Assembly (NCBI GenBank): GCA_018436725.1
Contig: JAHDKT010000054.1
Location: 1-64,000 of the forward strand
DNA length: 64,000 nucleotides
Direction: 5' to 3'
Source of the DNA: Synergistaceae bacterium
Lineage (GTDB): Bacteria > Synergistota > Synergistia > Synergistales > Aminobacteriaceae
The notes beneath the pieces are model-generated. The model was not told the origin of the DNA. It was given only the letters and a program-made list of their open reading frames with translations, and ran no database searches. Positions 24,436-57,770 of this stretch are shown here, one piece after another (position 1 is the first letter of the stretch; each line of letters opens with the position of its first letter). The position numbers and the translations under genes were made by a program.

Positions 24436-24441
24436 CTGCAT

Positions 24442-24457
24442 GGTCGACCGGTCGACC
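24442..24457. promoter_or_regulatory. GntR-type operator, copy 1 (GGTCGACCGGTCGACC)
   Basis: Perfect 16-bp palindrome that starts 6 bp after the -10 box, so it covers the transcription start. Identical copies lie at 33168-33183 and 37335-37350. A repressor bound here would block the ABC operon. The likely binder is the GntR/FCD protein encoded at 37368. Confidence 0.8.
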
Positions 24458-24543
24458 GCTATTTGAAAAAAAAAGTCGTCGTCTCAAAGAGGAAAGAATC
24501 TTCTCTTTCCTCTCAAAATGTACTCTGCGAGGGGAGATTGTCT

Positions 24544-25480: not shown

Positions 25481-26338
25481 ATGCCGATCATGAAAGGCAA
25501 TTCCATGTGGAAGTACACGTTCATCAGGCTGCGCAGGAACTATCTCGCGCTCATAGGATTCGCCATCCTTCTGGTGCTGATACTCACGGCGGTCTTCGCC
25601 GAACAGCTCGCTCCGTACGGCTTCGCCGACCAGGACTACATGATGATCAGGAAGCCGCCCACTGCGGAGCATCTCCTGGGGACGGACGAGTTCGGGCGCG
25701 ACGTGCTGAGCCGCCTGATCTACGGCTCCAGGATATCGTTGCAGGTGGGGCTGATCGCGGTGTCGATCTCGCTCGTCGCAGGAGGCGCGATCGGGGCGGC
25801 CGCCGGATATTTCGGCGGGAAGATGGACAATCTGCTGATGCGCGTCATGGACGTGCAGCTCGCCATCCCGACGATTCTGCTGGCCATCGTGATCTCGTCG
25901 GCGCTCGGCCCGGGACTCTTCAACCTGATGGTGGCGGTGGGAATCACCTCCATACCGCGTTTCGCCCGGCTGATGAGGGCGTCGGTGCTCTCGATCAAGA
26001 ACATGGAGTTCATCGAGGCGGCCCGCGCGATGGGGGCGAGCCATCTTCGCGTCATTCTTCTCTACATCCTTCCCAACTGCATGGCGCCTCTCATCGTGCA
26101 GTCCACCCTCAGCGTCGCCAACGCCATCCTCTTCGCCGCGACGTTGAGCTTTCTCGGCCTGGGAATCCAGCCGCCCTTCCCGGAGTGGGGGGGCATGCTC
26201 TCCGCGGCGCGCCCCTATCTCAGGAACAGCGCCTACCTGAGCATCTTTCCCGGCCTGGCCATCATGATCACGATCGTGTCGCTGAACTGCATCGGCGACG
26301 GTTTGCGGGACGCTCTCGATCCCAAGCAGAAACGGTAA
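25481..26338 (+). CDS. dppC: Peptide ABC transporter permease, DppC-like
   Basis: 285 residues. Features: first helix [52 protein letters not shown] (DppC hallmark), the coupling motif [22 protein letters not shown] and the end [22 protein letters not shown] precedes the ATG at 25481, 13 bp after dppB. It pairs with DppB in the membrane. Confidence 0.94.
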
Positions 26339-28917: not shown

Positions 28918-30111
28918 ATGAAAGAACTACTTGCGAAAAGGGTCCGTGAGATCGCACCGGAGGTTGTCGAGTGGCGGCGTCGTATTCACCGGAATCCGGA
29001 GCTGAGCTTTCAGGAGTTCGAGACGTCCGCGCTGATCGAGGAGAAGCTCCGCTCGTTCGGCGTCGATACGATACGCAGGATCGGCAGCAGCGGCACGGGC
29101 ATATGCGCCGAGCTGTACGGAACCGGAAGCGGCCCGGGAAGATGCGTCGGCATCCGGGCGGATATCGACGCCCTCCCGATTCAGGAGCAGTCGGGGGTTC
29201 CGTACGCCTCGACGAAGGACGGAATCTTTCACGGCTGCGGGCACGACTCCCACGCCGCCATTCTGCTGGGGACGGCCCGGCTGCTCTCCGAGTTCCGACA
29301 TACCTTCTCCGGCTGCGTCAAATTCTTCTTCCAGCACGCGGAGGAGGAACTCGGCGGAGGGAAAGAGTTCATGGAGGCCGGAGTGATGGAGAATCCGCAC
29401 GTCGACGGCGTCATGGCGCTGCACGCGCTGCCCGATATCTACGTCGGGGAGATCGGCGTCCGCGACGACTTCATGACCGCCGGAGTCGACCTGCTGAAGA
29501 TCGTCGTGGAAGGGAAGCAGGCGCACGGCGGGTACCCTCACTACGGAGTGGACACCATCCTCGCCGCGTCGACCATCGTGACCGCGCTCCAGAGCCTGGG
29601 TTCGCGCGAGCTGGCGCCGACGGACTGCGCTTTCGTGACCTTCGGGCGGATAGAGGGCGGCATCTCGAACTCGTACATCGGAGGGCCAGTGCGCCTCGAA
29701 GGGTGCATACGCTACCTCCGGAAGACCACGCAGGAACTTTTTCATCGGAGAGTCCGCGAGATCGCAACGAGCGTGGGGGAGGGGCTTCGGGCAAAAGTTT
29801 CCGTGGAAATAACTCCCGAGATGATCCCCACGTGCGTCGACAGGAAGTGGGTGAACCGCATCCGGAAGGTGTGCGCCGATATCGACTCGGTGGAGCGGGT
29901 CATCGATCTGCCCTCGCCCGCGATGGGCGGGGAGGACTACGCCTATTTCCTGGAGAAGGCCCCCGGAGCGCTCTTCCGGCTCGGGGTCAGGACGAAAGGC
30001 GGCCCGCACTGTCCGACGCACTCCATCAACTTCTATGTGGACGACGAGGCGATTCCGATCGGGATGGAGATTATGGCGGCGGCGGCTCTCGACGCCTTGA
30101 GAGAGGAGTAG
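28918..30111 (+). CDS. M20D amidohydrolase (hippurate hydrolase/IAA-amino-acid hydrolase-like)
   Basis: 397 residues. Motifs: VEWRRRIHRNPELSFQEFET (N-terminal signature), GIRADIDALPIQEQSG, HGCGHDSHAAILLG (metal-binding Cys and His), QHAEEELGGGKEFME (catalytic Glu pair), HALP, and the final GGEDYAYFLEKAPG. This is the M20D pattern, whose members release amino acids from N-acyl conjugates such as hippurate. GGGAGGGG precedes the ATG at 28918. Located between the transporter ATPases and the binding protein, it probably hydrolyses the imported amide. Confidence 0.92.
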   Translation: MKELLAKRVREIAPEVVEWRRRIHRNPELSFQEFETSALIEEKLRSFGVDTIRRIGSSGTGICAELYGTGSGPGRCVGIRADIDALPIQEQSGVPYASTKDGIFHGCGHDSHAAILLGTARLLSEFRHTFSGCVKFFFQHAEEELGGGKEFMEAGVMENPHVDGVMALHALPDIYVGEIGVRDDFMTAGVDLLKIVVEGKQAHGGYPHYGVDTILAASTIVTALQSLGSRELAPTDCAFVTFGRIEGGISNSYIGGPVRLEGCIRYLRKTTQELFHRRVREIATSVGEGLRAKVSVEITPEMIPTCVDRKWVNRIRKVCADIDSVERVIDLPSPAMGGEDYAYFLEKAPGALFRLGVRTKGGPHCPTHSINFYVDDEAIPIGMEIMAAAALDALREE

Positions 30112-30201
30112 GCGGACGCGGCAAGACGGGCGTTCGTCGGTTCCCGTAAAGAAGGTTTCACTGTTTCATGCGGCATATCTTATATAAAGGGGTGGATGTA
30201 C

Positions 30202-31731
30202 ATGAAGAAAAAGGGATTTCTGCGGTTGGTTTTCGGGGCGGCGCTTCTTCTGGCGGCCGCGACCGGCGCGTTGGCGGCCGGGATGGAGACGTTTACTCTG
30301 GGGCTTCCGGGAGACGCGAAGACGCTCGATCCTCAGCAGGCGGTGGACACGATGTCCTTCGCCGTGTCCAAGCATATCAACGAGCCTCTGGTGACGGTGG
30401 ACGGCAGGACGAAAGAGCTTGTTCCCGTATTGGCTGAGCGGTGGGAGATACTCGATCCGCAGACGTACAAGTTCTATCTGAAAAAGGGCGTGAAGTTCCA
30501 CAACGGCGAGGAGTTCACCGCCGAGGACGTCGTCTTCTCGCTGAAGCGCGCCGCTTCCCCCGCCTCGGTGCATGCCGGATCCAGAGGCAAGTACATCGAC
30601 ACCGAAGGCTTCCAGATCATCGACAAGCACACAGTGATCGTCAAAACCCGCGGCCCCGTCGGCGGCTGGCTTGAGTCCATGAAGCACCCCTACGCGAGCA
30701 TCTACAACAAGAAAGCCGTCGAAGAGGCGGGCGCGGAATATTTCAGAAACCCCGTGGGCACGGGTCCCTTCAAGTTCAAGAGCTGGACCAAGGGAGAGCG
30801 CATCGAGCTGACGGCGTTCGAAGACTATCATGGCGTTGCGCCCAACTTCAGGAACTTCAACATCCTTGTTCTTCCCGACGACAGCAGCCGCGTCATCGCG
30901 CTGGAGACGGGCAAGGTCGACATGATCTACGCCGTGCCGCCCAGCGATTTCGAACGCCTGAACGAATCCTCGAAGGTAAAGGTCGTCAAGGCCCCCGGGC
31001 TTGGCCTGATCTACCTCGGGATGAACACGCAGAAAAAGCCTCTCTCCGATCCTCGCGTCCGTCATGCCGTCGACTACGCGATCAACAAGGCGGCGTACGA
31101 CGCCGTGGTCTATCAGGGGAATTCGGCGCAGCCCGCAGGCCCTCTGGTTCCCGCGAGCACCTTTACGCCGAAGAACGTCAAGGACCATCCTTTCGACCCC
31201 GCGAAGGCCAAGGCGCTTCTCGCCGAGGCGGGGTACCCCGACGGAATCAGCCTGAATCTCTGGATCAGCAACTTCCAGGACCGTGTCAACGGGGCCACCG
31301 TCGTTCAGTCCATGCTGGCCGCCGTGGGAATCAAGGTTGAAATTCAGGTCTTCGAGTCCGGAGTGTTCGACGGAAAGGTCAAGACCAACGAACAGGACCT
31401 CATCATCAGCACATGGGGAATGCAGACCAACAGAGACGCCGGGCAGTTCTGGCTTTCGCTCTTCCACTCGGGCAGCGTCGGCGCGACCAACTGGACGGTC
31501 CTCAAGGATTCCGTAGTGGACAAGGGGATCGATACCGCGAACATCACCGTCGACGCCGCCGAACGCACAGCGCTCTTCCAGGGAGTCTGGGATCGCCTCG
31601 AAGAACTCCGCCCGATGGTTCCTCTGTCGGTGCCCAACGAACTCTACGGCGCCAGGAAGGATCTCGTCGGCCTGGAGAATCTCGCCGACGGCCGCCTGAA
31701 CTATCTCGGCAACCTCTCGCTCCAGAAGTAA
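30202..31731 (+). CDS. dppA: Periplasmic peptide-binding protein, family 5 (DppA/OppA-like)
   Basis: 509 residues from the ATG at 30202, which has AAGGGG 9 bp upstream. The ATG at 30196 is closer than is usual to the ribosome-binding site. Signal peptide GFLRLVFGAALLLAAATGALA. The mature protein starts GMETFTLGLPGDAKTLDPQ, then GVKFHNGEEFTAEDVVFSLKRA (family-5 signature) and NPVGTGPFKF. It captures peptides or peptide-like ligands for the DppBCDF proteins encoded just upstream. A hairpin with six T follows, but the next M20 gene starts only about 70 bp later, so part of the transcription may continue. Confidence 0.94.
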   Translation: MKKKGFLRLVFGAALLLAAATGALAAGMETFTLGLPGDAKTLDPQQAVDTMSFAVSKHINEPLVTVDGRTKELVPVLAERWEILDPQTYKFYLKKGVKFHNGEEFTAEDVVFSLKRAASPASVHAGSRGKYIDTEGFQIIDKHTVIVKTRGPVGGWLESMKHPYASIYNKKAVEEAGAEYFRNPVGTGPFKFKSWTKGERIELTAFEDYHGVAPNFRNFNILVLPDDSSRVIALETGKVDMIYAVPPSDFERLNESSKVKVVKAPGLGLIYLGMNTQKKPLSDPRVRHAVDYAINKAAYDAVVYQGNSAQPAGPLVPASTFTPKNVKDHPFDPAKAKALLAEAGYPDGISLNLWISNFQDRVNGATVVQSMLAAVGIKVEIQVFESGVFDGKVKTNEQDLIISTWGMQTNRDAGQFWLSLFHSGSVGATNWTVLKDSVVDKGIDTANITVDAAERTALFQGVWDRLEELRPMVPLSVPNELYGARKDLVGLENLADGRLNYLGNLSLQK

Positions 31732-31858: not shown

Positions 31859-33046
31859 ATGAACTCCGAAGTTCTTCAAAAATCTCTGGATATCTATGAG
31901 TATCTGGTCGAAATGAAACGCCGGATTCATGCGAACCCCGAACTGGGTATGCAGGAGTTCGCCACCGCGGCGCTGGTCGAGTCGGAACTGCGAAGCATGG
32001 GAGTGGAGATCGTCCCCTTGGAACAGAACGTAGGCGTCCTCGGAATCATCCGCGGAGAAAAGACGGGCAGCGGAACGGTTTCCGCGCTGCGCGCAGATAT
32101 GGACGCGCTCCCGATACAGGAGACCGCGGACGTTCCGGATAAATCGAAGGTCCCCGGCGCGATGCACGCCTGCGGACACGACGCGCATACCGCCATGCTC
32201 CTGGGCGCGGCGAAAATCCTCGTCTCCATGAAGGAACGCTTCTCCGGGACGGTCAAGCTGATCTTCCAGCCCGCCGAGGAGACGCTCGGAGGCGCTCTCT
32301 ACATGATCGAACAGGGGGCGCTGGACGCTCCGAAGGTCGATCGCGTCTTCGGAATGCACGGGCACTCTTCGTACCTTGTGGGCGAGATCGCCTTTCGGGA
32401 GGGGCCGTCCATGGCCTCCTCGGACTTCTTCACGGTGACGATCAAGGGGAAGAGCGGGCACGGGGCCTACCCGCACCGCACGGGGTGCGACCCCGTTCTG
32501 GCGGCGTGCACCTCCGCTCTGGCGCTTCAAAGCGTGGTCACCAGGCAGATAGACGCCCTCGACAGCGTCGTGCTTTCGATCTGCGAGATCCGGGGAGGGA
32601 CGGCGAAGAACATCATCCCCGAGACGGTCGAGTTCGGAGGCTCCATCCGTTGTCAGAACATGGAGACGCGGAACTCGATGGAAGGACGCATCCGCGACGT
32701 CGTCCGAGGAATAGCGGCCTCCTACAAGTGCGAAGCGGAACTGGACTACCATTACGGCGTGCCGCCGCTCGTCAACGCGCCGGAGATGACCTCGCTCGCC
32801 CGGGAGAGCGCGCGGAAGCTCGTCGGGGCGGACCGGGTGAAGACTATCGACTTCCCCGCCATGGGTTCCGAAGACTTCTCCAGATACTTGGAAAAGGTCC
32901 CGGAAGGCGTCTTCGCCCGTTTGGGGATAGCCGAGCCGGGAAAGCCCGCCCCCGTCTTTCACAACGGAGGCTTCGTCTTCGCCGAGGGGGCTCTGCCGTA
33001 CGGAACGGCGCTCTTCGTCCAGTTCGTTCTGGATGTGAATCAGTAG
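31859..33046 (+). CDS. M20D amidohydrolase, second copy of the ABC operon
   Basis: 395 residues. Motifs: EMKRRIHANPELGMQEFAT, ALRADMDALPIQETADV, HACGHDAHTAMLLG, QPAEETLGGALYMIEQG, GKSGHGAYPHRTGCDP and MGSEDFSRYLEKVPEG. It is a close family relative of the hydrolase at 28918 but clearly a separate paralogue. The two may differ in acyl or amino-acid preference. GGGAGGG precedes the ATG at 31859. A long GC-rich hairpin without T-run (33062-33091) follows, then the promoter of the next operon. Confidence 0.92.
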   Translation: MNSEVLQKSLDIYEYLVEMKRRIHANPELGMQEFATAALVESELRSMGVEIVPLEQNVGVLGIIRGEKTGSGTVSALRADMDALPIQETADVPDKSKVPGAMHACGHDAHTAMLLGAAKILVSMKERFSGTVKLIFQPAEETLGGALYMIEQGALDAPKVDRVFGMHGHSSYLVGEIAFREGPSMASSDFFTVTIKGKSGHGAYPHRTGCDPVLAACTSALALQSVVTRQIDALDSVVLSICEIRGGTAKNIIPETVEFGGSIRCQNMETRNSMEGRIRDVVRGIAASYKCEAELDYHYGVPPLVNAPEMTSLARESARKLVGADRVKTIDFPAMGSEDFSRYLEKVPEGVFARLGIAEPGKPAPVFHNGGFVFAEGALPYGTALFVQFVLDVNQ

Positions 33047-33132: not shown

Positions 33133-33161
33133 TTGACTTCCTCTTGAAGCGATGTTACAGT
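33133..33161 (+). promoter_or_regulatory. Promoter of the URO-D/dehydrogenase operon
   Basis: TTGACT at 33133-33138, 17-bp spacer, TACAGT at 33156-33161. Both hexamers and the spacing equal those of the promoter at 24407. Confidence 0.75.
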
Positions 33162-33167
33162 CAAGAT

Positions 33168-33183
33168 GGTCGACCGGTCGACC
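33168..33183. promoter_or_regulatory. GntR-type operator, copy 2 (GGTCGACCGGTCGACC)
   Basis: Identical 16-bp palindrome, again starting 6 bp after the -10 box. It ties the operon at 33317-35247 to the ABC operon and to the GntR gene at 37368. Confidence 0.8.
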
Positions 33184-33316
33184 GTATCGCGAAGCCCTCG
33201 ACGACGCGAAAATTTCCCCTTCCCCTCGATGTCGCGGGAAGGGAAGCGGTATGCGCGGCCCTTTTTCCGCCGCGCCGCACGAAACGACATACGTATCCTG
33301 CAGGAGGTAACGATCG

Positions 33317-34315
33317 ATGAAAATGACCCATAGGCAGCGCATAGAAAACGCACTCGCGTTGAAGGAAACGGACAGGCTTCCCTACAGCATGTGGATGCAC
33401 TTCCCCAATCGGGACCGTCATCCGCGCCGGCTGGCGGAGCTGAGCCTGGCCAACCAGAAGAGGTTCGACCTCGACTTCGTTAAATTCATGCCCTTCGGCA
33501 TGTACTCCACCATCGACTACGGAATCGACCTCGACCTTCTTCCCGGTTTCGTCGACGCTCCCTCGGCGCACGCGCCGCTCGTCAAGGACGTCGCCGACTG
33601 GGACAAGATCCGCTTCGTCTCCGGAACCTCCGGCGAGTACGCCGTCGTTCTGGAAGCCCAGCGCCTGCTCTTCGACATGATGGACGAACGCGTCCCCTTC
33701 CTCCAGACGGTCTTCAGCCCCATGACCACGGCCGCCAAGCTGTGCAGCCCGTCCGTTCTGATGAAGCATCTCGCGGAGGACCCGCGCCGCATTCACCGCG
33801 CTCTCGAAATCATCACCGCCGCGACGGTGCAGTTCGCCAAGGCTTCCGTCTCTCTCGGCGCGGACGGGCTCTTCTTCGCCACGCAGATGTCCACCCGCGA
33901 CGCGATCGATCCGGTCTCGCACGAGGCGTTCGTCAAAAAGTACGACTTCGAAGTGCTCAACAGCGTCAGAGGCTCCACCTGGTTCAACGTGATGCACGTC
34001 CACGGGGCGAACGCGATGATCCGCGAGGTCCAGGACTACCCGGTGCAGGCGCTGAGCTGGCACGACAGGGACGACGGTCCCTCGATGGAGGAGGTACGCG
34101 CGTACAGTACGAAGGCGTTCATCGGCGGTCTGAGCTGGGGAAAGAACTGGATCGGCAAAACGAACGAGGAGGTCGTCGCCGAAGTGCGCGAGACGGCCGC
34201 CCGCAACGGCGGCAGAGGCGTCGTCCTCGGCCCCGGCTGCGTCATCGACCCCTCCACGCCGGAAGAGCGGCTGGAGCTGGTCCACAAGACCGTTCTCGAA
34301 ACGGCGCGTTCATAA
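33317..34315 (+). CDS. Uroporphyrinogen-decarboxylase (URO-D) fold protein, methyltransferase-like
   Basis: 332 residues. It begins MTHRQRIENALALKETDRLPYSMW, the usual opening of the URO-D/MtaA/CmuA superfamily, and ends LGPGCVIDPSTPEERL, also typical. True HemE active-site motifs are absent. The likely metal ligands are in VMHVHGAN near residue 227 and the Cys of GPGC near 309. Corrinoid methyltransferases MtaA and MtbA have H-x-C and Cys at the corresponding places, so this H-x-H/Cys set is a variant. No corrinoid protein is encoded nearby. Function is therefore unknown: possibly a methyl or C1 transfer or decarboxylation of an imported compound. A paralogue lies at 36067. Confidence 0.8.
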   Translation: MKMTHRQRIENALALKETDRLPYSMWMHFPNRDRHPRRLAELSLANQKRFDLDFVKFMPFGMYSTIDYGIDLDLLPGFVDAPSAHAPLVKDVADWDKIRFVSGTSGEYAVVLEAQRLLFDMMDERVPFLQTVFSPMTTAAKLCSPSVLMKHLAEDPRRIHRALEIITAATVQFAKASVSLGADGLFFATQMSTRDAIDPVSHEAFVKKYDFEVLNSVRGSTWFNVMHVHGANAMIREVQDYPVQALSWHDRDDGPSMEEVRAYSTKAFIGGLSWGKNWIGKTNEEVVAEVRETAARNGGRGVVLGPGCVIDPSTPEERLELVHKTVLETARS

Positions 34316-34380
34316 CCTCTCTGCGAGTCGCCTCGGCAACGGGGCGGCTCGCCGTTTTTTCGGAGAAGGAGGCTCGACCT

Positions 34381-35247
34381 GTGAAGAACATAGCGTTTTT
34401 CGGTCTCGGCAGAATGGGGTTGCCCATGGCCAAGCGCCTGCTCGCCGCCGGGTATTCCCTGCGGACGAGCGTTCATAGAAATCCGGCCCCGGCGGATGAA
34501 CTGCGCTCCCTCGGAGCGGAAATCTTCGCGTCCCCGCTGGAGGCCGTATGCGGCGCGGAGCTGATCGTCGCCATCCTCCCCGCCGACCGCGAGATCGAAG
34601 AGCTGTTCCTCGATCCGGCATTCTTCGAGGCCGTCGAACGGGGCGCCGCGATCATCGAAATGTCCACGGCGACGCCGGGCTGCGTCAGGAGAGTCGCGGA
34701 GCGCTATGCGGAAAAGGGCGTTCGCTTTTTCGACGCTCCCGTGAGCGGCGGCGTGAAGGGCGCCGAGGAAGGGACGCTTACCGTGATCGGCGGAGGGGAC
34801 TCGTCGCTCCTCGAGGAGATCCGACCAGTTCTCGAACACATGGCGAAGAGAATCTTCCTCGTCGGCGGCGTCGGTTCGGGAAAGGCCATGAAGTCGATCA
34901 ACCAGATCATGGTGGCTTCCAATACGCTCGTCGTCGCGGAGGCTCTTCGGTATGCGCGCCGGCTCGGCGTCGATCCCGAGAAGATGTTCGAGACGATCTC
35001 CGCGAGTACCGGAGCTTCGGCGGCGCTGACGGCGAAGTTTCGCAAGATGGCGAACGAGGACTTCGCGCCGGGGTTCACCCTTGCGCTGATGAAGAAGGAT
35101 TTGAAAATCGCCCTTTCGGAGGCGGGAGAGACGCCGCTGCCCCTGATCACCCTTGCGAGACAGATCTATCTGATGCTCGGCGAAGAGCGCGACGGAGAGG
35201 ACTACACCGTGGTGTCGACGCTGTTCGAAGGCGGAGGAAAGAGCTGA
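34381..35247 (+). CDS. 3-hydroxyisobutyrate dehydrogenase/tartronate semialdehyde reductase family oxidoreductase
   Basis: 288 residues from the GTG at 34381, with AAGGAGG 8 bp upstream. It is a beta-hydroxyacid dehydrogenase: NAD(P) motif IAFFGLGRMGLPMAKRLL at the N-terminus, substrate motif FFDAPVSGGVKGAEEGTLTVIGGG, and the catalytic Lys in GSGKAMKSINQIM (near residue 170). These enzymes interconvert beta-hydroxyacids and their semialdehydes, or reduce ketopantoate-like compounds. It follows the URO-D gene after 65 bp and shares its promoter and operator, so it probably oxidises or reduces the product of the same pathway. Confidence 0.9.
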   Translation: MKNIAFFGLGRMGLPMAKRLLAAGYSLRTSVHRNPAPADELRSLGAEIFASPLEAVCGAELIVAILPADREIEELFLDPAFFEAVERGAAIIEMSTATPGCVRRVAERYAEKGVRFFDAPVSGGVKGAEEGTLTVIGGGDSSLLEEIRPVLEHMAKRIFLVGGVGSGKAMKSINQIMVASNTLVVAEALRYARRLGVDPEKMFETISASTGASAALTAKFRKMANEDFAPGFTLALMKKDLKIALSEAGETPLPLITLARQIYLMLGEERDGEDYTVVSTLFEGGGKS

Positions 35248-35275
35248 GCCGAAGCCGCTTCCGGCGGGTTCTTCC

Positions 35276-35304
35276 TTGACATGTGGCGCGGCTTTTAGTA
35301 GGAT
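35276..35304 (+). promoter_or_regulatory. Promoter of the GntR gene at 35367
   Basis: TTGACA at 35276-35281, a 17-bp spacer and TAGGAT at 35299-35304. Confidence 0.6.
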
Positions 35305-35308
35305 CAGT

Positions 35309-35332
35309 ATAATATAAAATATAATATAAAAT
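35309..35332. promoter_or_regulatory. Tandem 12-bp direct repeat, possible operator
   Basis: ATAATATAAAAT occurs twice without a gap (35309-35320 and 35321-35332), beginning 5 bp after the -10 box. In an otherwise GC-rich genome this A/T block stands out. It is the likely autoregulatory site of the GntR protein that follows, and it differs completely from the GGTCGACC operator. Confidence 0.55.
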
Positions 35333-35366
35333 CCTTGCTCTTGGAAGAAAGAGAGGCGCTGCATTT

Positions 35367-36029
35367 ATGGTCATCGATCGGGCGACGACCGCCGTCTACG
35401 AGAAGAAGACGGTGAAGGAGAAGGTCTTCGAATATCTCAGAGAGGCTATTCTGAAGGGAAAGCTCCCCAGCGGACAGCAGATACGACAGGACGATATCGC
35501 GTTGCAGCTCGGGGTGAGCCGCGTTCCCGTCCGTGAAGCCCTGATGCAGCTGGAGGCCATCGGTCTTGTGAAATTCTCCCCATACAAGGGGGCGGTTGTT
35601 TCGACGCTTTCGCCGGAGGACGCGAGGGAGATCTTCGAAATCCGTTCTTTGCTGGAGGCGGAGGCGCTCGTCCTGGCGTTTCCGAATCTTTCCCACGAAG
35701 CGCTGGACAGGGCCTGGCAGCTTGTGGAGGAGGCGGGAGAAGAGGAAGACCCCCTCAAATGGAGCGAAAAAAATTGGAACTTCCACTCGTTCCTCTATCA
35801 ATTTTCCGAGCGGCCTCGCTTGATCGCCCTGATACGTTCGCTTCACGACAACGTCGCTCCCTATAGAGCGCTGTATTTACGATCGTTGGACTCTCATTGC
35901 GAATCCACCGCCGCGCACCGACGGATCGTCCAAAGTCTGCGCGCGGGGAGGATAGAGGATGCGGCGCGCCTTCTCAAAGAACACCTGGCGCTTGCGGAGA
36001 TGAATATTATTCGCTACTTGAAGCGATAG
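35367..36029 (+). CDS. GntR/FCD-family transcriptional regulator (first of three)
   Basis: 220 residues. N-terminal winged helix: EYLREAILKGKLPSGQQIRQDDIALQLGVSRVPVREALMQLE, the GntR signature, residues about 20-60. C-terminal all-helical FCD domain (LLEAEALVLAF, NWNFHSFLYQFS, AHRRIVQSLRAGR, LLKEHL) with Asp and His residues that often hold a metal ion and a carboxylate ligand. The URO-D paralogue at 36067 follows after 37 bp, so the regulator and that gene are probably one unit. The ligand is unknown. Confidence 0.93.
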   Translation: MVIDRATTAVYEKKTVKEKVFEYLREAILKGKLPSGQQIRQDDIALQLGVSRVPVREALMQLEAIGLVKFSPYKGAVVSTLSPEDAREIFEIRSLLEAEALVLAFPNLSHEALDRAWQLVEEAGEEEDPLKWSEKNWNFHSFLYQFSERPRLIALIRSLHDNVAPYRALYLRSLDSHCESTAAHRRIVQSLRAGRIEDAARLLKEHLALAEMNIIRYLKR

Positions 36030-36066
36030 TATATTTCGACAAAATTAAGAGGAGGTTATTTCTACC

Positions 36067-37068
36067 ATGAAACCGATCGAAAGAGTCAAGGCGTTGCTCG
36101 AAGGGAAAAAGACGGATGTGCCGGCGATCAACCTTTGGAAGCACTTCCCGCCGTACGACGAAGACCCCGTGCAGCTCGTCAAAAAGATAGCGCAATTCCA
36201 GGACAGGTTCAACTGGGACTTCGTGAAAGTGACCTACCAGGGGCTTTTCTCGGTGCAGGACTGGGGTTCGAAAATCAAGTGGCCGGAAAGAAACTCCGAA
36301 TGGCCCGCCACGTGCTCCGGCGTCGGCGTCGTGACCGATTTCTCCGTCAAACGCCCCGAGGACTGGGCGAACCTTCGCCCGCTCTCCATGGACGAAGGCT
36401 CGATGAAAGCCTCCATCGACGCCGCGAAGGGAGCGATCGACCGCTACAAGGGCGTGGCTCCCGTGGTGGTGACGGTCTTCAACTCGTTGACGACGGCCGT
36501 GAAAATGTCCGGCGAGAAGATGTTCGTTCACATGCGGCAGAATCCCGAGGCGTTCGTCAAAGGAATCCGGACCATCACGAAGACGACCGCCGATTTCGTA
36601 AAAAGCGTGATGAAGGCCGGCGCAGACGGCATCTTCTTCGCGAGCCAGCTCGGAAATTTCGACAAGATGAGCGTTCAGGAGTACGAGACGTTCGGCAGAC
36701 CGTACGACCTCGAAATCCTTGAACATGCGGCCGGAGGCTGGTTCAACATCATGCACATGCACGGCAACGCGCCGATGTTCGATATCATGAGCAAGTACCC
36801 CGTACATGCCTTGAACTGGCACGACCGCCTGGTCGACATCGATCTCCGCAAGGGCAGGGAGCTGTGCAAGGACAAGCTGCTGATCGGCGGCGTGGAGGAG
36901 TTCAAGGTGCTGCCGGACGCCGGCGAAAACGAACTGAAGGCGCATCTTGCGGACGCTCTTCGGCAGGTCGAGGACGGCCGGCTGATCCTCGGTCCCGGTT
37001 GCTGCGTTCCCTCCTCCATCGACGAGGATCGTTTCGCGCTGGCGAAGAAACTCCTTATGGAGCTGTAG
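36067..37068 (+). CDS. URO-D fold protein, second paralogue
   Basis: 333 residues, homologous along its length to the protein at 33317. Shared landmarks: HFP near residue 26, WDFVKV near 50, the central GADGIFFASQ, then WFNIMHMHGNAPM with H-x-H, ALNWHDRL and GPGCCVPSSIDEDR with a Cys. The double Cys in GPGCC differs from GPGCV in the first copy. Not HemE. Like its paralogue it most resembles MtaA-type methyltransferases but has no corrinoid protein as neighbour. GAGGAGG precedes the ATG at 36067. Regulated most likely by the GntR gene directly upstream. Confidence 0.8.
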   Translation: MKPIERVKALLEGKKTDVPAINLWKHFPPYDEDPVQLVKKIAQFQDRFNWDFVKVTYQGLFSVQDWGSKIKWPERNSEWPATCSGVGVVTDFSVKRPEDWANLRPLSMDEGSMKASIDAAKGAIDRYKGVAPVVVTVFNSLTTAVKMSGEKMFVHMRQNPEAFVKGIRTITKTTADFVKSVMKAGADGIFFASQLGNFDKMSVQEYETFGRPYDLEILEHAAGGWFNIMHMHGNAPMFDIMSKYPVHALNWHDRLVDIDLRKGRELCKDKLLIGGVEEFKVLPDAGENELKAHLADALRQVEDGRLILGPGCCVPSSIDEDRFALAKKLLMEL

Positions 37069-37330: not shown

Positions 37331-37354
37331 CATTGGTCGACCGGTCGACCAATG
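37331..37354. promoter_or_regulatory. GntR-type operator, copy 3, extended 24-bp perfect palindrome
   Basis: The GGTCGACCGGTCGACC core at 37335-37350 is extended on each side by CATT/AATG, which makes a perfect 24-bp palindrome. It lies between the -10 box and the ATG of the GntR gene, so that gene is very probably autoregulated. The longest palindrome belongs to the regulator itself, which suggests the tightest binding there. Confidence 0.85.
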
Positions 37355-37367
37355 TGGAGGGGAAAAA

Positions 37368-38096
37368 ATGGACAAGGAAATCAGCGGTTTATCCGCCGTC
37401 AAAGGAGATCTCAAGGAGCTGGTCGTCTCCCACGTCAGGGGACTTATTTTCGAGAAGAACCTGCTTTGTTGCGGCGACCAGATCAACGAAAGAGAGCTTT
37501 CGCGGACTCTCGGCGTGAGCAGGGCTCCCATAAGAGAGGCGCTGAAGGAGCTTGAAGAGCAGGGGCTCATCGTCTCCGTCAAGTACAAGGGGTGGTTCGT
37601 CGCCGACTTCAGAGAACAGGAGTTTTTCGAGATCAACAAGCTCCGGACGCTGCTCGAACACAGTCTTTTCGAGGCGATCATCTCCCAGGGTGTTCCCGAC
37701 GAGGAGCTGCTTCGGGCCGAACGGCTGAACGAGGAGCTGAACGAGATCGTGGAGAGCGCGGAACTCGGCGAGAGGAAGGCCGTCGCGTTCGCCGAGAAGG
37801 AGATGGAGTTCCATCTCTGTCTTCATTCTCTGCCCCGCGACTGCTTCTGGACGAAGAAGATGCTCCGGAACCTCTCCTATCAGATACAGTGTTCCTTTCA
37901 TCGCTGGCTGTACACCGAGTGGCAGATGAAGGCCAGCGTGGAGACGCACCGGATGCTGCTTCAATGCTTGAAGGAAAGGGATATGGAGAGGCTGTATCCG
38001 CTTCTTTCCCGCAGGTTGGGGAAGTACCATCTCGCCTCCCCGGAGGAGATGCCGAGGTTGGAAATCATATGCGACGAACCGCTCGCTTCGCAATAA
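37368..38096 (+). CDS. GntR/FCD-family transcriptional regulator, probable controller of the GGTCGACC regulon
   Basis: 242 residues from the ATG at 37368, chosen because GTGGAGGGG lies just upstream and the frame above it runs through the operator. N-terminal winged helix with LCCGDQINERELSRTLGVSRAPIREALKELEEQG (GntR signature), then an FCD domain (LRTLLEHSLFEAIIS, EKEMEFHLCLHSLP, ETHRMLLQCLKERD). Its own promoter carries the operator, and two identical operators precede the ABC operon and the URO-D operon. FCD regulators usually respond to small carboxylic acids. The UPF0597 gene follows 121 bp later and may be co-transcribed. Confidence 0.92.
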   Translation: MDKEISGLSAVKGDLKELVVSHVRGLIFEKNLLCCGDQINERELSRTLGVSRAPIREALKELEEQGLIVSVKYKGWFVADFREQEFFEINKLRTLLEHSLFEAIISQGVPDEELLRAERLNEELNEIVESAELGERKAVAFAEKEMEFHLCLHSLPRDCFWTKKMLRNLSYQIQCSFHRWLYTEWQMKASVETHRMLLQCLKERDMERLYPLLSRRLGKYHLASPEEMPRLEIICDEPLASQ

Positions 38097-38217: not shown

Positions 38218-39510
38218 TTGGGGTGTCGAAAGGTGTCGTTGAAGCAGTTTCTGAAAGAGGAAGTCAAGCCCGCGCTCGGATGTACCGAGCCGGTGGCCGT
38301 GGCTCTCGCCGTGGCGAGAGCCCGCGAGGAGCTTGAGGGAAAACCGGAGAGAGCGGAGATACTCCTCAGCTCCAATATCTTCAAGAACGGAGCCTCCGTC
38401 GGTATTCCCGGGAGCGGCGGTCTGAAGGGAAACGAGGTCGCTGCCGCGCTTTCGCTCGTTTCGGGGAGGTCGGAGTACGGTCTCGAAGTTTTGAAGGAGT
38501 GCGGCCCGGACGACGTCGAGTCGGCGATGGAACTGCTGAATGCGGGCGCGGTGCGTCTCTCCGTCGACAGGAATATTTGCGGCGTATTCGTGAGAGCGAG
38601 CGTTATGAACGCCGGACACTCCGCGAGCTGCACCATCGAAAAGAACCACTCCAACATCACCGAAGTGATCCGCGATGGTACAATTATATCCACGGCCGCT
38701 TCCTCGAACGGAGCCAACGGAACTCTTTCGGCCGCGGAAGCGATTTCTCTGATGACCTGGGATCAGGTCATGGAATACCTCGACGAGGCGGATCGGGAGG
38801 ACGAGGCCTTTCTTTTGGAGGGCGTGCGGATGAATCTCGCCATAGCGAAGAAGGGGTTCGAAGAGGGCGTCGGGCTCGGCGCCGGGCGGACGATCCGCGA
38901 CTCCTTCGACGATTTCGGAAACGCGGACCTCGGGGCGAAGATCAAGGCCTGGAGCGCCGCCGCCTCGGACGCCCGCATGAGCGGCGTCCCCATGCCCGTG
39001 ATGAGCAGCGCGGGGAGCGGCAACCACGGGATCACGGCGGTCCTGCCCGTCGCGCTCTTCGCGAAAGAAAAAGGGCTGAGCGACGAAAAGCTGGCGCGAG
39101 GTCTTCTCGTCAGCCATCTCGCCACCGCGTACGTGAAGAGCAGAACGGGCAGGCTGAGTTCCACCTGCGGCTGCGCCTTCGCCGCCGGAGCCGGGGCGGC
39201 CGCGGGGATGGCGTGGCTTTCGAGCGAGCGGACGGACGTTGCGAAAAACGCCGTCGGCATAGTGGTATCCAACCTTCTGGGCATGCTCTGCGACGGGGCG
39301 AAGGAGAGCTGCGCCTTCAAGGTGGGAACCGGCGCGATGGAAGCGTACCACGCCGCACTCATGGCGGCCGGAGGTATCGAGTTGGGAACTCAGGGAGTCG
39401 TGGGAAAAACCATCGACGAGACCATCGACAACGCCGCGCGCGTGGCGTCGAGCATGGGCGCCATAGAGCAGACGCTGCTCGATATCCTCGACGACAGAAA
39501 AAAGGCGTGA
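38218..39510 (+). CDS. UPF0597/CyuA-like enzyme (predicted iron-sulfur beta-eliminating lyase), first copy
   Basis: 430 residues from a TTG at 38218 with AAGGAAGG 8 bp upstream. Related to the L-cysteine desulfidase/CyuA (YhaM) and serine-dehydratase alpha fold. Cys residues expected to hold a [4Fe-4S] cluster are visible: ALGCTEP at residue 22, and the late STCGCAFAAG and LCDGAKESCAFK. Other family motifs are FKNGASVGIPGS, HSNITEV and GSGNHGITA. The characterised members convert L-cysteine to pyruvate, ammonia and sulfide, but many UPF0597 proteins have other or unknown substrates. A TRAP transporter follows, and a second UPF0597 copy lies behind it. Confidence 0.85.
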   Translation: MGCRKVSLKQFLKEEVKPALGCTEPVAVALAVARAREELEGKPERAEILLSSNIFKNGASVGIPGSGGLKGNEVAAALSLVSGRSEYGLEVLKECGPDDVESAMELLNAGAVRLSVDRNICGVFVRASVMNAGHSASCTIEKNHSNITEVIRDGTIISTAASSNGANGTLSAAEAISLMTWDQVMEYLDEADREDEAFLLEGVRMNLAIAKKGFEEGVGLGAGRTIRDSFDDFGNADLGAKIKAWSAAASDARMSGVPMPVMSSAGSGNHGITAVLPVALFAKEKGLSDEKLARGLLVSHLATAYVKSRTGRLSSTCGCAFAAGAGAAAGMAWLSSERTDVAKNAVGIVVSNLLGMLCDGAKESCAFKVGTGAMEAYHAALMAAGGIELGTQGVVGKTIDETIDNAARVASSMGAIEQTLLDILDDRKKA

Positions 39511-39622
39511 AGCGCGTGTGGAGGTGATGCGCCCGAAGGACGGGGAATCAGGGGAATCATCGCGGCCGATACGTAGAGAAAGTATTTCAGGAGAAGTTTC
39601 ATCATACCGAGGAGGTGCTCTT

Positions 39623-40633
39623 ATGAGAAAAGGAATACTCGCACTGCTGGCAGTTCTGTTCGTGCTCGGCGCAGGAACGGCGTTCGCCGCCGACAAGACC
39701 TACACGCTCCGCCTCGCCACCGTCGTCAGTCCGCCCCACCCCTGGCACGAGGCCGCGAACTATCTTCAGCAGGAGCTGGAGAAGCGGACCGGCGGCGCCG
39801 TGAAAGTGCGCATCTTCGGAGGTTCGCAGCTCGGCTCCGACCAGTCCGCATTCGAAGAGATGCGCATGGGAACGATCGACCTCATGATCGGCGGCGCCAC
39901 CACGCTGATCAACTTCGTTCCGGAGCTGGGGGCGCTCAATCTTCCCTACTTCTACTCCGGGATCGACCAGTTCAGAAAAGTGATGGAGCCGCAGGGACCC
40001 GTGGTCGAGAGATTCAAGGAGATCTACGCCTCCAAGAACCTCGGCGTGCGCCTGCTGGCCCTCGGCGGCGGCGGCACCCGCGTCTTCTCGAACAATCTTC
40101 GCGACGTCGTCGGGCCCGAAGGGCTCAAGGGGATGAAGATGCGCGTGCCGAACAGCCCCAAGGACGCGAAGATCTGGTCCACCGCCGGCGCGCTCGTGGT
40201 CGCCATGCCCTGGGGCGAGATCTACTCCGCCCTGCAGACCGGCGTCGTCAACGCCTTCGAGAGCACGCTCAGCGGCTACTTCGGCAGTAAGCTGTACGAG
40301 GTGGCGAAGCACATGAGCAACACCCAGCACATCATCATGGTGAGCCACCTTCTGATGAGCGAAGCCACGGCCAAGAAACTTCCGCCCGAGTACGTGAAGA
40401 TCGTCGAAGAACTCTCCGACGAGGTGGGGCGCATCTTCACCGACAAGGGAGAGGAGTTCGACAAGCAGGTCATGGCCGACCTGAAGGAGAAGTACGGCGT
40501 CGTCATCTCCGAAGTCGACATGAAGGCCTTCATGGACATCTTCCAGCCGCTGCACGACGAACTGATGGCCGCCGACAACAACGAAGAGCTGCTCAAACTG
40601 CTCCGGGAAGCCAGGGACGCCGCTTCGAAGTAG
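39623..40633 (+). CDS. dctP: TRAP transporter substrate-binding protein, DctP family (first system)
   Basis: 336 residues from the ATG at 39623 with GAGGAGG upstream. Signal peptide MRKGILALLAVLFVLGAGTAFA. The mature protein shows LRLATVVSPPHPWHEAANYLQQ, the family signature GGLKGMKMR-like segment (GPEGLKGMKMRVPNS with the Arg that binds the ligand carboxylate) and GVVNAFESTLSGYF. It delivers an organic acid or zwitterion with a carboxylate to the DctQM proteins encoded next. It sits between the two UPF0597 genes, so the ligand is probably the substrate of those enzymes. Confidence 0.93.
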   Translation: MRKGILALLAVLFVLGAGTAFAADKTYTLRLATVVSPPHPWHEAANYLQQELEKRTGGAVKVRIFGGSQLGSDQSAFEEMRMGTIDLMIGGATTLINFVPELGALNLPYFYSGIDQFRKVMEPQGPVVERFKEIYASKNLGVRLLALGGGGTRVFSNNLRDVVGPEGLKGMKMRVPNSPKDAKIWSTAGALVVAMPWGEIYSALQTGVVNAFESTLSGYFGSKLYEVAKHMSNTQHIIMVSHLLMSEATAKKLPPEYVKIVEELSDEVGRIFTDKGEEFDKQVMADLKEKYGVVISEVDMKAFMDIFQPLHDELMAADNNEELLKLLREARDAASK

Positions 40634-40711: not shown

Positions 40712-41209
40712 ATGGAGAGATTGAGGAAACTCAACGACTTTTTGTGCTTCGTACTGACGAAGGTCTGTCTTGTCATGGTGCTGTTGTTCACCTGCGTCGT
40801 CATCTTCCAGGTGCTCGCCAGAAACTACATTCTCGTCTCCGTCCCCTGGACGGACGAGGTCGCCCTGATCCTTTTCGTCTGGTCGGTTTTTCTGGGCGCC
40901 GCAGTGGCGCTCCGGAAGCGGATGCACTACATCGTCGACCTGTTCCCCCCGTCCTGCAAGCGTGTCAACGGCTTTCTGGATCTTCTGTCCTCGTTCCTGG
41001 TGCTCGGCGTCGTCCTCGTCCTTCTCTACGGCGGGAGCGTCTTCGCGCATATGGGGCTTGCCCGACGCTTCAGCTCCATCCTTGTCACGCAGTCGTGGCT
41101 CTTCGTCTCCATGCCGGTCGCCGCTTTCTGCATGCTGCTCTTCTCGGTCGAAAACATCGCGAAGGATTTCGCTCGCTTCAAAAACGCTCTTCGAAAGGGG
41201 GACGCGTAA
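40712..41209 (+). CDS. dctQ: TRAP transporter small permease, DctQ family (first system)
   Basis: 165 residues, four helices. Motifs of DctQ are VVIFQVLARNYI, WTDEVALILFVWSVFLGAAVALRKRMH (the conserved W-x-(D/E)-E and GA elements) and VSMPVAAF. AAGGAGG precedes the ATG at 40712. The stop is adjacent to the dctM start. Confidence 0.93.
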   Translation: MERLRKLNDFLCFVLTKVCLVMVLLFTCVVIFQVLARNYILVSVPWTDEVALILFVWSVFLGAAVALRKRMHYIVDLFPPSCKRVNGFLDLLSSFLVLGVVLVLLYGGSVFAHMGLARRFSSILVTQSWLFVSMPVAAFCMLLFSVENIAKDFARFKNALRKGDA

Positions 41210-42502
41210 ATGGACCCGTTGCTGCTTCTTCTGGGAAGCTTCTTCGTCTTCATCGCCATCCGGGTGCCGGTGGCTTTCGCCCTGGCGCTCTCCTCGCTGG
41301 CGGTCATCCTTCAGATCGAGCTGCCGTTCATGAGCCTCATAAACCAGATGTTCACAGGGATCAACTCCTTCCCGCTGCTCGCCGTCCCCTTCTTCCTCAT
41401 CCTCGGCAGGGTGATGAACGACGGCGGGATCACCGAGCGTCTGCTCCACGTCTCCAACGCGTGGGTCGGTCATATCAAGGGGGGTCTGGGGCATGTGAAC
41501 GTCATGGTGAGCATGCTCTTCGCCGGGCTCTCCGGCTCCGCCGCCGCGGACACCGCGGGCGTGGGCGGCATGCTCATCCCCGCCATGATCAAGAGCGGCT
41601 TCGGCAAAGAATTCACCGTCGCCATCACGGCGGCTTCCTCGGTGCTCGGCGTCATCATCCCTCCCAGCGTCATGATGATCCTCTACGGCGCGATGGGGCA
41701 GGTCTCGGTCGGCGCGCTCTTCCTCTCCGGGATCGTGCCCGGCGTCATGATCGGCCTGACCCAGATGGCCTACACCTACTACCTGGCGAGGAAGCTGAAC
41801 TACCCCTCCATGCCGAGAGTGCCGTTCCCGCAGAAAGTGATCACCACGCTGAAGGCGGTTCCTCCGCTCACCATCCCCTTCATCATCCTCGGCGGCATCA
41901 CCTTCGGCATCTACACCGCCACGGAGGCGGCGTCGGTCGCCCTCGTCCTCGGCCTGATACTGGTGCTCGTCGTCTACAGGAACACCCCGTGGCGCGACCT
42001 GCCCGCCATCTTCAGCGACGGCGTCATCGCCTACTCGCTGCCGATGTTCGCCGTGGCCTGCGCCTGCGTGATGGGGTGGCTGATCGCCTACCTCGACGCG
42101 CCCGCCATGATCGCCGACTACATGATGGGGATCACCACGTCCTACTACGGGATCTACACCATGCTCGTCATCTTCCTCCTGATCATCGGGACGTTCCTCA
42201 GCCCCGTGGCGAGCATCATCATCTTCCTCCCGATCATCCAGGCGATGGGGAACGCCGCCGGAATCCATCCGCTGCACCTCGGGATCATCGTCAACCTGAC
42301 GCTCGCGCTCGGACAGATCACGCCTCCCTACGGCATCTGTCTGCTGATCGCCTGTCAGATCGGGGATTTGAGCATGCCCAAGGCATTCCTGGCGACGCTC
42401 CCTCTGCTTGTGCTCGCTCTCGGCGTGATCGTGCTCGGGATCGTCTTCCCGAACCTCTTCCTCTTCATCCCGAAAGCGCTGATGCCGGCGGCTTTCCTGT
42501 AA
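41210..42502 (+). CDS. dctM: TRAP transporter large permease, DctM family (first system)
   Basis: 430 residues, about twelve helices. Typical features: FFVFIAIRVPVAFALALSSL at the start, GLSGSAAADTAGVGGMLIPAMIKSGF, SVLGVIIPPSVMMILYGAMG and LTLALGQITPPYGICLLIA near the end. It uses a Na+ gradient to drive uptake with DctP and DctQ. It begins directly after dctQ and is followed by the second UPF0597 gene after 51 bp. Confidence 0.95.
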   Translation: MDPLLLLLGSFFVFIAIRVPVAFALALSSLAVILQIELPFMSLINQMFTGINSFPLLAVPFFLILGRVMNDGGITERLLHVSNAWVGHIKGGLGHVNVMVSMLFAGLSGSAAADTAGVGGMLIPAMIKSGFGKEFTVAITAASSVLGVIIPPSVMMILYGAMGQVSVGALFLSGIVPGVMIGLTQMAYTYYLARKLNYPSMPRVPFPQKVITTLKAVPPLTIPFIILGGITFGIYTATEAASVALVLGLILVLVVYRNTPWRDLPAIFSDGVIAYSLPMFAVACACVMGWLIAYLDAPAMIADYMMGITTSYYGIYTMLVIFLLIIGTFLSPVASIIIFLPIIQAMGNAAGIHPLHLGIIVNLTLALGQITPPYGICLLIACQIGDLSMPKAFLATLPLLVLALGVIVLGIVFPNLFLFIPKALMPAAFL

Positions 42503-42553: not shown

Positions 42554-43837
42554 ATGCATTCACTGCTCGACATCTTAAAGAAAGAAACCGCCCCCGCGCT
42601 GGGCTGCACCGGTCCGGTATCCATAGCCTACGCCGCCGCCGTCGCCCGTAGCGTCGTGGGCGGCGTCCCCCGAAAAGTCGTGGCGAGGTTGGACAAGGAC
42701 AGCTACAAGAACAGCCTCAGCGTCGGCATACCCGGAACGGACAAGATGGGCATCGAGATGTCCCTCGCGCTCGGCGCGCTGTGCGGAGACGCGGAGGCGG
42801 GGCTCGAGGTGCTGTGCAACGTCGCTCCGGAGGACGCCCGTCGCGCGGAGGAGTTCCTTCCTTTCGTCGACGCGGACATATCCTGGGAGTACAAGGGCGT
42901 GGGCCTTCGAATCGAGGCCGAAGTGGAAACTGAAAACGGAACGGGCAGAGCCGTTCTCTCGAAGACCCATACCAACGTCGTATCGCTCGAAGCGAACGGA
43001 AAGCGACTCGTCGAAGAGCGGACAGCTCCGGAAGGGAACGTCTTCGACTACTCGAAGGACGCCATTCGGCGATTCACTCTCGCGGAACTCGTGGAGTTCG
43101 CCGAGACCGTTCCGCTGGAGGATATTCTCTTCCTTAAAGAGGGAATAACCATGAACCGCGCTCTTGCCGAAGCCGGACTGAACGAGGGCGTGGGCGCGGG
43201 TTTCGGCAGAGGGTATCTCGCGCGTGCGGGATCGGATGTGCTTTTGAAGATCAAAGCCGTTACCGCCGCCGCGTCGGATGCGCGCATGGGAGGCGTTTCG
43301 CTTCCCGCGATGAGCTGCGCCACGAGCGGCAACGTAGGCATAGCCGCCATGCTTCCGCTCGTCGTGCTGGCGGAGGAAAGAAAGGCGGACGAAGAGGCTC
43401 TGCTTCGTTCGATCGCGCTCAGCTATCTGCTCACCATCCTGATGAAAAGCCATATCGGAAGGCTCTCCGCCATCTGCGCGTGCGCGATGGCGGCGGGAAT
43501 CGGCGTCGCAGGGGGAGCCTCTCTTCTTCTCGGCGGCGGACTCGCGTGCGCCGAAGCCGCGATCCGGAACATGACGGGATGCCTGACCGGCGTCGTCTGC
43601 GACGGTGCGAAGTACGGCTGCGCGCTCAAACTCTCCGCGGCGGCCGGAATCGCCGTGGAATCGGCGATGCTCGCCCTCGAAGGGTGCGTCGTCCCCGCAG
43701 GAGACGGACTGGTGTGCGCCGACGCCGACCGATCGATGGAGGTCATTGGTCGGGTTGCCCGCGAGGGCATGAGCTTGACCGCCGACGTCATGGCCAAGAT
43801 CATCGTCGATCGGGAGAGAGAGGGAAGAAAGAGATAA
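42554..43837 (+). CDS. UPF0597/CyuA-like enzyme, second copy
   Basis: 427 residues, a diverged paralogue of the gene at 38218. Cys18 in PALGCTGP, KNSLSVGIPGTDKM, THTNVVSLE, TSGNVGIAAMLP and the late Cys set in ICACAMAAG and VCDGAKYGCALK match the family pattern. The two copies differ in the active-site region (TEP versus TGP, HSNITEV versus HTNVVSL), so they may act on different substrates or form a two-subunit enzyme like the split serine dehydratases. AAAGGA precedes the ATG at 42554. A terminator follows. Confidence 0.84.
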   Translation: MHSLLDILKKETAPALGCTGPVSIAYAAAVARSVVGGVPRKVVARLDKDSYKNSLSVGIPGTDKMGIEMSLALGALCGDAEAGLEVLCNVAPEDARRAEEFLPFVDADISWEYKGVGLRIEAEVETENGTGRAVLSKTHTNVVSLEANGKRLVEERTAPEGNVFDYSKDAIRRFTLAELVEFAETVPLEDILFLKEGITMNRALAEAGLNEGVGAGFGRGYLARAGSDVLLKIKAVTAAASDARMGGVSLPAMSCATSGNVGIAAMLPLVVLAEERKADEEALLRSIALSYLLTILMKSHIGRLSAICACAMAAGIGVAGGASLLLGGGLACAEAAIRNMTGCLTGVVCDGAKYGCALKLSAAAGIAVESAMLALEGCVVPAGDGLVCADADRSMEVIGRVAREGMSLTADVMAKIIVDREREGRKR

Positions 43838-44933: not shown

Positions 44934-44947
44934 AGGGGCGATATGAG

Positions 44948-46864: not shown

Positions 46865-46904
46865 GTCGAGGAGCGGAGAGCCCTCGTTTATCTGTTGATT
46901 TTAA

Positions 46905-46967
46905 AAAAACCCCGATGCGTATGCTTTCGATAAACGATTATGAGAGAGTGCTCTCGTCGGGGTTTTT
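46905..46967 (+). terminator. Large intercistronic stem-loop after the second dctP
   Basis: AAAAACCCCGA (46905-46915) and TCGGGGTTTTT (46957-46967) make an 11-bp perfect stem with a 41-nt loop, which itself can fold (GAGAG/CTCTC). The T-run fits a leaky terminator that gives more binding protein than permease. Confidence 0.7.
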
Positions 46968-46993
46968 ATTTCCTGAGGAGGGGAAGTGATTCG

Positions 46994-48774: not shown

Positions 48775-48799
48775 CGATAAGAAAGGAGAGGGAAGAACG

Positions 48800-57757: not shown

Positions 57758-57770
57758 CGCAGCGCGCCGC

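Follow-up and report, generated by a model that had tools for sequence, protein, structure and literature searches.

Which reaction might two proteins of the uroporphyrinogen decarboxylase (URO-D) fold carry out in a genome where they are the only members of their family and no corrinoid protein is encoded beside them? This question is raised by a stretch of 64,000 nucleotides from a Synergistaceae bacterium (GenBank assembly GCA_018436725.1, contig JAHDKT010000054.1, positions 1 to 64,000), referred to here as the window and located on contig C111 of the genome. The assembly comprises 4.78 Mb, is of Synergistota type and 99.45% complete with 7% contamination, and its only two PF01208 genes, URO-D A and URO-D B, both lie inside the window. 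A genome of the same genus carries both genes in the same order with 95-97% identity, so that assembly contamination is an unlikely explanation for the locus. URO-D A and URO-D B belong to a distinct branch of the superfamily whose site is altered and which also differs from the other branches in its partners and its role in the genome. Our answer concerning their function is tentative and falls somewhat short of an even chance: the window would hold a regulon for the breakdown of a sulfur-containing amino acid derivative taken up by the cell, in which a corrinoid-free, metal-dependent URO-D step feeds cysteine to the L-cysteine desulfidase CyuA.

The H-x-H branch of the URO-D superfamily

URO-D A (33317-34315; 332 aa; P0001) and URO-D B (36067-37068; 333 aa; P0002) are encoded on the forward strand, as are all genes of the window described below between positions 24463 and 43837. 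Searches with PF01208 yielded 113.5 bits (E 1.5e-32) for URO-D A and 80.8 bits (E 1.3e-22) for URO-D B at a Pfam gathering score of 23.9, and both proteins are 30% identical over their full length. An AlphaFold2 model built with 79 sequences reached a pLDDT (predicted local distance difference test) of 95.8 and matched, among solved structures, MtaA best (template modelling (TM) score 0.85), followed by HemE (~0.8) and MetE (0.50-0.63). The PF01208 scores and the barrel fold place the proteins in the URO-D superfamily.

URO-D A contains the motifs H227-V-H229 and W248-H249-D250 as well as C308, the cysteine of its GPGC motif; the corresponding motifs in URO-D B are H-M-H, WHDR and GPGC. An alignment of 79 family members from about a dozen phyla showed that W26, K56, T131, D210, H227, H229, Y241, H249, G271 and C308 are invariant (79/79), and that residue 250 is Asp in 69 members. 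The family was collected with two search patterns, one of which includes H-x-H; the 27 members retrieved solely by the other pattern all have the motif as well, and its conservation is therefore not a search artefact. At this position H-x-H was found in none of 17 other Synergistota PF01208 proteins, nor in MtaA or HemE, the readable motifs being H-x-C or of another form. A profile alignment with MtaA, whose site was compared through aligned positions only, placed H227/H229 on the H-x-C of MtaA, H249-D250 on its Glu-Glu and C308 on its last Cys. Judged from these aligned sequences, H227, H229 and C308 may bind one metal in a putative site, with H249 or D250 as a possible fourth ligand.

In a tree that included 19 outside sequences, every H-x-H member fell on one side of a branch of length 1.1 (approximate likelihood-ratio support, SH-aLRT, 100); the corrinoid methyltransferases of Synergistota lay outside this clade, as did MtaA and HemE. 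Since tree building used a quick method and the branches joining at the base are long, we do not claim an exact sister group. Within the clade, URO-D A lies among Synergistota and URO-D B with Sedimentibacter and other Bacillota; the two copies thus go back to an old split and not to a recent duplication. Scores of URO-D A with models of the MtaA/MtbA/CmuA families stayed far below the cut-offs (TIGR01463: 79.5 vs 235 bits; NF040654: 79 vs 400 bits; NF041608: 48.5 vs 600 bits), those of URO-D B were lower or similar, and H-x-H stands in place of the H-x-C of these families in 79/79 members. Neither the literature (subscription papers were outside the search) nor the structures searched contained a characterised member of the clade, and the same literature search found nothing relevant on URO-D proteins linked with CyuA.

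No corrinoid protein or RACo reactivase was detected by BLAST near the H-x-H genes at any of ~100 loci, whereas the same searches found a corrinoid protein at 15/20 and RACo at 13/20 control loci around other Synergistota PF01208 genes, all from one order. In the source genome PF02607 is confined to two open reading frames of 825 and 854 aa, a MetH-like size, and the single RACo homologue is located on a different contig. A comparison of corrinoid genes at the genome level covered 60 relatives, three of which (G009, G027 and G036; near-complete at 99%, two of one contig and one of five) carry an H-x-H gene and lack both PF02607 and PF14574; one of these, the single-contig genome G009, encodes orthologues of both URO-D copies. 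The combination of corrinoid protein and reactivase expected for corrinoid methyltransferases was thus not found beside the H-x-H genes, and in these three relatives not elsewhere in the genome either. A methyltransferase of the MtaA or Mlp type borrowing a corrinoid protein encoded elsewhere could appeal to MtaA as the closest fold and to the MetH-size PF02607 proteins and RACo homologue of the source genome; however, the empty neighbourhoods, the three relatives, the low family model scores and the change from HxC to HxH throughout largely refute this explanation, to which we give very little weight. An even poorer candidate, refuted for practical purposes, is a HemE paralogue decarboxylating haem precursors or other tetrapyrroles. 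Its case consists of the Pfam family name and the fold, against which stand the hemE equivalog model TIGR01464 (24.8 bits for URO-D A and 19 bits for URO-D B vs a cut-off of 303), the position of HemE outside the clade and the genome itself, which has no HemE and no PF01208 gene beyond the two with H-x-H. Clade members with an annotation in public records, among them those in NZ_CP069357.1, NZ_CP076363.1, NC_011961.1 and NC_018749.1, are labelled uroporphyrinogen decarboxylase or a protein of that family and carry a Gene Ontology term for porphyrin biosynthesis; the present results contradict this for H-x-H members and make the term wrong across the clade.

A preliminary description of the window, made from the sequence alone, had proposed two URO-D-fold paralogues with H-x-H in place of H-x-C and a retained C-terminal Cys, without corrinoid protein, reactivase or HemE context, and a reaction outside haem and methyl-corrinoid metabolism. 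These proposals agree with the scores, alignments and gene searches above. As outcomes that would speak against it, the description had named a co-conserved corrinoid protein, which the relatives did not reveal, and placement inside a characterised methyltransferase clade; the phylogeny gave a separate, fully supported clade with no characterised member among the sequences searched. That copy B sits in a different, Bacillota subclade had been missed.

C-S lyases and a shared operator

Clustering of the neighbour proteins at 79 named H-x-H loci, many of them on short contigs, revealed a gene for a C-S lyase at 37/79 loci compared to 0/20 control loci (Fisher p = 4e-5). CyuA-type L-cysteine desulfidases account for 25 of these, Cds1/cysteine-synthase-like pyridoxal-phosphate enzymes for ten and methionine gamma-lyases for two. 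Restricted to Synergistota, a C-S lyase was present at 11/14 H-x-H loci (p = 1e-6). On the same strand, CyuA overlaps the URO-D gene or lies within 200 bp of it at about ten loci from Synergistota and Bacillota; overlaps of 19-34 bp, or a CyuA gene following within 50 bp, were seen in several Synergistota, in Clostridium citroniae and in a Fermentithermobacillaceae metagenome-assembled genome (MAG). Elsewhere other enzymes take this place: Cds1 at a proteobacterial locus labelled Pantoea (577 bits vs a cut-off of 600), a cysteine-synthase-like protein in the lyase role in Synergistaceae and a methionine gamma-lyase-like gene in Neobacillus niacini. That unrelated cysteine-splitting enzymes replace one another in this position is the strongest pointer to function.

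In the window, CyuA 1 (38218-39510) retains GCTEP and CDGAKESCAFK, which contain the catalytic and cluster-binding residues given in PMC12647591, and matches the solved M. maripaludis enzyme (PDB 9fsl) over its full length (E 1.5e-35); full-length homology and motifs identify it as a member of the CyuA family. A second PF03313 gene, CyuA-like 2 (42554-43837), begins 51 bp past DctM. The catalytic Glu is replaced in its GCTGP motif, Gly standing where M. maripaludis CyuA has Glu25, its proposed catalytic base, and the cluster cysteines are retained; CyuA-like 2 may act on another substrate. The GCTGP variant was observed again at locus L054 (1185-2456), near a solute-binding protein of a tripartite ATP-independent periplasmic (TRAP) transporter.

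A second connection between these genes is a putative operator. Its core, GGTCGACCGGTCGACC, occurs with at most one mismatch at exactly three sites in the 4.78 Mb genome, all of them in the window (24442-24457, 33168-33183 and 37335-37350), compared to 0.11 matches expected from the shuffled window; the 18-mer at three mismatches has only three weaker sites elsewhere in the genome. Copies 1 (24441-24458) and 2 (33167-33184) share the sequence TGGTCGACCGGTCGACCG and follow a promoter-like TTGACT-17-TACAGT pair (33133-33161 for copy 2); copy 3 (37334-37351) is the perfect palindrome TGGTCGACCGGTCGACCA. By reading, TTGACx and TAxxxT hexamers were recognised just ahead of each site, and a scan recovered the pair before URO-D A. 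Copy 1 precedes an operon for an oligopeptide-type ATP-binding cassette (ABC) importer that ends in two M20 genes, copy 2 precedes URO-D A, and copy 3 precedes the gene for the GntR (FCD) regulator 2, followed by CyuA 1, a TRAP system and CyuA-like 2. As one putative operator is found at these three promoters and is unique to them, we assign the ABC/M20 operon, URO-D A and the GntR-CyuA-TRAP-CyuA genes to one regulon. The palindrome probably belongs to GntR 2 (37380-38096; start codon chosen by reading, first possible start at 37299).

Similar sites behind promoter-like hexamers were found before the GntR/URO-D genes of locus L079 and before the URO-D gene of L081. The arrangement differs in L042, a relative of the same genus: URO-D A has no operator of its own there and begins about 60 bp after the M20 gene, and therefore appears to be part of the ABC-M20 operon. 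A related perfect palindrome, TGATCGACTGGTCGATCA, was noticed on another contig (G000:C46:3246-3263), where a related GntR protein may use it as operator.

The operator mentioned in the preliminary description thus proved real, and its connection of the ABC importer with the URO-D genes was borne out by the shared, genome-unique predicted operator and by synteny in relatives. The TRAP transporter, a second importer, was missing from that picture, and so were the cysteine desulfidases and other C-S lyases.

A possible route to cysteine and its alternatives

From this arrangement we propose the following sequence of steps. The compound would enter the cell through the oligopeptide-type ABC importer and probably also through the TRAP transporter, and the M20 amidohydrolases would cleave off an N-acyl group or split a peptide bond. 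URO-D A and B would then set free L-cysteine, or else a beta-thio amino acid closely similar to it, independently of corrinoids: most likely, a divalent metal on His227, His229 and Cys308 (with His249 or Asp250 as possible fourth ligand) would bind the sulfur and activate it for cleavage of the S-substituent. CyuA would cleave the released cysteine to pyruvate, ammonia and sulfide, and GntR 2 probably represses all three promoters via the palindrome at their start sites. For the URO-D step, the zinc-thiol chemistry of MtaA and MetE (PMC10418091, PMC539065) serves as an analogy.

Several points weigh against this proposal. The sulfur-binding role of the metal is suggested by analogy, and the site, with His instead of a Cys, is further removed from the His-Cys-Cys arrangement described for S-methyltransferases (PMC10418091). 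No acceptor for the S-substituent is evident in the operon. At 42/79 loci no C-S lyase was seen, though many contigs are short, and the control comprises 20 loci from a single order. Importers vary widely among the loci (several ABC types, TRAP and tripartite tricarboxylate transporters (TTT)), and substrates may therefore differ between clades. Finally, genes for dehydrogenases resembling 3-hydroxyisobutyrate dehydrogenase (HIBADH) were found at 8 loci, for D-2-hydroxyacid dehydrogenases at 6, for glyoxylate carboligase-like proteins at 3 and for BhcA-like aminotransferases at 3, counts not significant versus the control; such neighbours would suit an enzyme that frees an aldehyde acid as well as one that acts on sulfur.

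The last point leads to the main rival, a corrinoid-independent lyase or decarboxylase. Here URO-D would cut a C-C or C-N bond and free an aldehyde acid of the glyoxylate or tartronate semialdehyde type for the HIBADH-like enzyme, the metal would stabilise an enolate or activate water instead of binding sulfur, and CyuA would work on the other fragment or on cysteine in parallel. The fold takes its name from a decarboxylase, HemE, and in the window the gene for a beta-hydroxyacid dehydrogenase (34381-35247; GTG start; HIBADH/tartronate-semialdehyde-reductase-like) follows URO-D A after 65 bp, its best NCBIfam score being that for tartronate semialdehyde reductase. Relatives with glyoxylate-reductase-like, glyoxylate-carboligase-like and BhcA-like genes adjoining the URO-D gene point in the same direction. 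However, these genes are scattered, with 20 matches over 79 loci and no significant enrichment, none of them exceeds its family cut-off, and the enrichment of C-S lyases is stronger; we consider this explanation unlikely, while taking it more seriously than any other alternative. The CyuA link could also be incidental, with amino-acid fermenters clustering their catabolic genes and URO-D acting on a non-sulfur compound imported by ABC or TTT systems. The loci without a C-S lyase in reach, the variation in transporters and regulators and the abundance of PF03313 genes in Synergistota would be in keeping with such a coincidence. It accounts poorly for CyuA genes that overlap or touch the URO-D gene in several genera, for the replacement of CyuA by unrelated C-S lyases in Proteobacteria and Bacillaceae, for a predicted operator unique to URO-D A, the ABC importer and the CyuA operon, and for the lack of C-S lyases at the other Synergistota PF01208 genes (0/20), and we regard it as rather improbable.

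Extending the proposed cysteine-releasing step to the whole clade, the H-x-H proteins might form a third functional branch of the URO-D fold beside haem decarboxylases and corrinoid methyltransferases: widespread metal enzymes that cleave S-substituted or otherwise modified cysteines directly and so make cysteine and sulfide accessible from environmental organosulfur compounds of a class not yet recognised. We put this forward as a possible but doubtful generalisation. Oral, gut, soil and digester bacteria are among the carriers of the clade, which extends over about a dozen phyla. The regulon proposed above, if the reading is true, would mark a corrinoid-free use of the URO-D fold and a new entry into cysteine breakdown and sulfide release. 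For identifying the substrate, induction through the operator, uptake by the importers and sulfide from the desulfidase offer readouts.

Neighbouring genes and known systems

The ABC operon encodes two permeases (24463-25467, PF00528 and PF19300, start codon uncertain; 25481-26338, OppC-like, PF00528 and PF12911), two ATPases with PF00005 and PF08352 (26340-27344; 27212-28327, true start downstream of the start of the reading frame), a family 5 solute-binding protein (30196-31731, PF00496) and M20 amidohydrolases 1 (28918-30111) and 2 (31859-33046), both with PF01546 and over the TIGR01891 cut-off (314 and 360 bits). GntR (FCD) regulator 1 (35367-36029) ends 37 bp before URO-D B. The TRAP system consists of DctP (39518-40633, PF03480, start at 39518 or 39617), DctQ (40712-41209, PF04290) and DctM (41210-42502, PF06808); in G009 a TRAP system comes after the URO-D B orthologue. 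Both GntR genes noted beside the URO-D copies in the preliminary description are real, and the dehydrogenase named there stands as a HIBADH-like gene, with scores below every NCBIfam cut-off.

M20, M24, C45 and opine dehydrogenase genes also recur near H-x-H genes, not significantly enriched versus the small control. In a plasmid collection, an Aerococcus homologue sits after a MetQ-type methionine importer, and homologues from Gemmobacter and Microvirga sit before TTT transporters. In two MAGs assigned to different phyla, the gene immediately after the H-x-H gene encodes a BhcA-like class V aminotransferase (L079:10051-11196 and L081:10009-11160). Further along the window, a third GntR gene is followed after 14 bp by a gene of the phosphoenolpyruvate (PEP)-mutase/isocitrate-lyase family (44948-45814; pair at 44244-45814), and then by a second TRAP system with a family III CoA-transferase (45875-49996). 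On the minus strand, a C45/AAT-family acyltransferase adjoins a second family 5 solute-binding protein (56699-59324); at L121, L124 and L127 a C45 gene has as neighbours the H-x-H gene and an ABC operon of the oligopeptide type. Candidates for phosphonate metabolism (a GntR protein nearest to phnR_burk, PhnW-like aminotransferase hits and the PEP-mutase-like gene at 44948-45814) scored far below the cut-offs, and degradation of the ectoine type was rejected, as all DoeA-, DoeB2- and EutC-like matches were below cut-off.

Of the known systems, the methylcobalamin:coenzyme M methyltransferase MtaA (PDB 4ay7, 4ay8) resembles the H-x-H family most in fold, in the position of the metal-ligand motif and in the C-terminal GPGC/APGC Cys. 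Identity in the structural alignment is 23%, and MtaA differs by H-x-C in place of H-x-H, by Glu-Glu in place of His249-Asp250 and by its corrinoid partner. HemE shares the fold and the Pfam family but differs in clade, in the hemE score and in its haem context. MetE has a related barrel and offers a functional analogy in its corrinoid-free zinc-thiol chemistry; its class is defined by a His-x-Cys, Glu, Cys zinc site and a methyl-tetrahydrofolate donor, whereas the H-x-H proteins are single-domain, have H-x-H and gave no sequence match to it. The Mlp proteins of type 1 mlp clusters (PMC10418091) are likewise members of the URO-D superfamily with several paralogues per cluster and proposed sulfur/selenium chemistry. 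The site of the H-x-H family is His-His-Cys, unlike that of Mlp proteins, and gene context also sets them apart: type 1 clusters encode Mlp2 and Mlp3 with a corrinoid protein and Ram/RACE, and no corrinoid or RACo gene is near the H-x-H genes. Cysteine fermentation by CyuA/cyuPA (PMC9040844, PMC12647591) is similar in combining an L-cysteine desulfidase with an importer and a dedicated regulator. The window adds a URO-D-fold step, M20 hydrolases and other importers to this scheme, and the imported compound is therefore probably not free cysteine.

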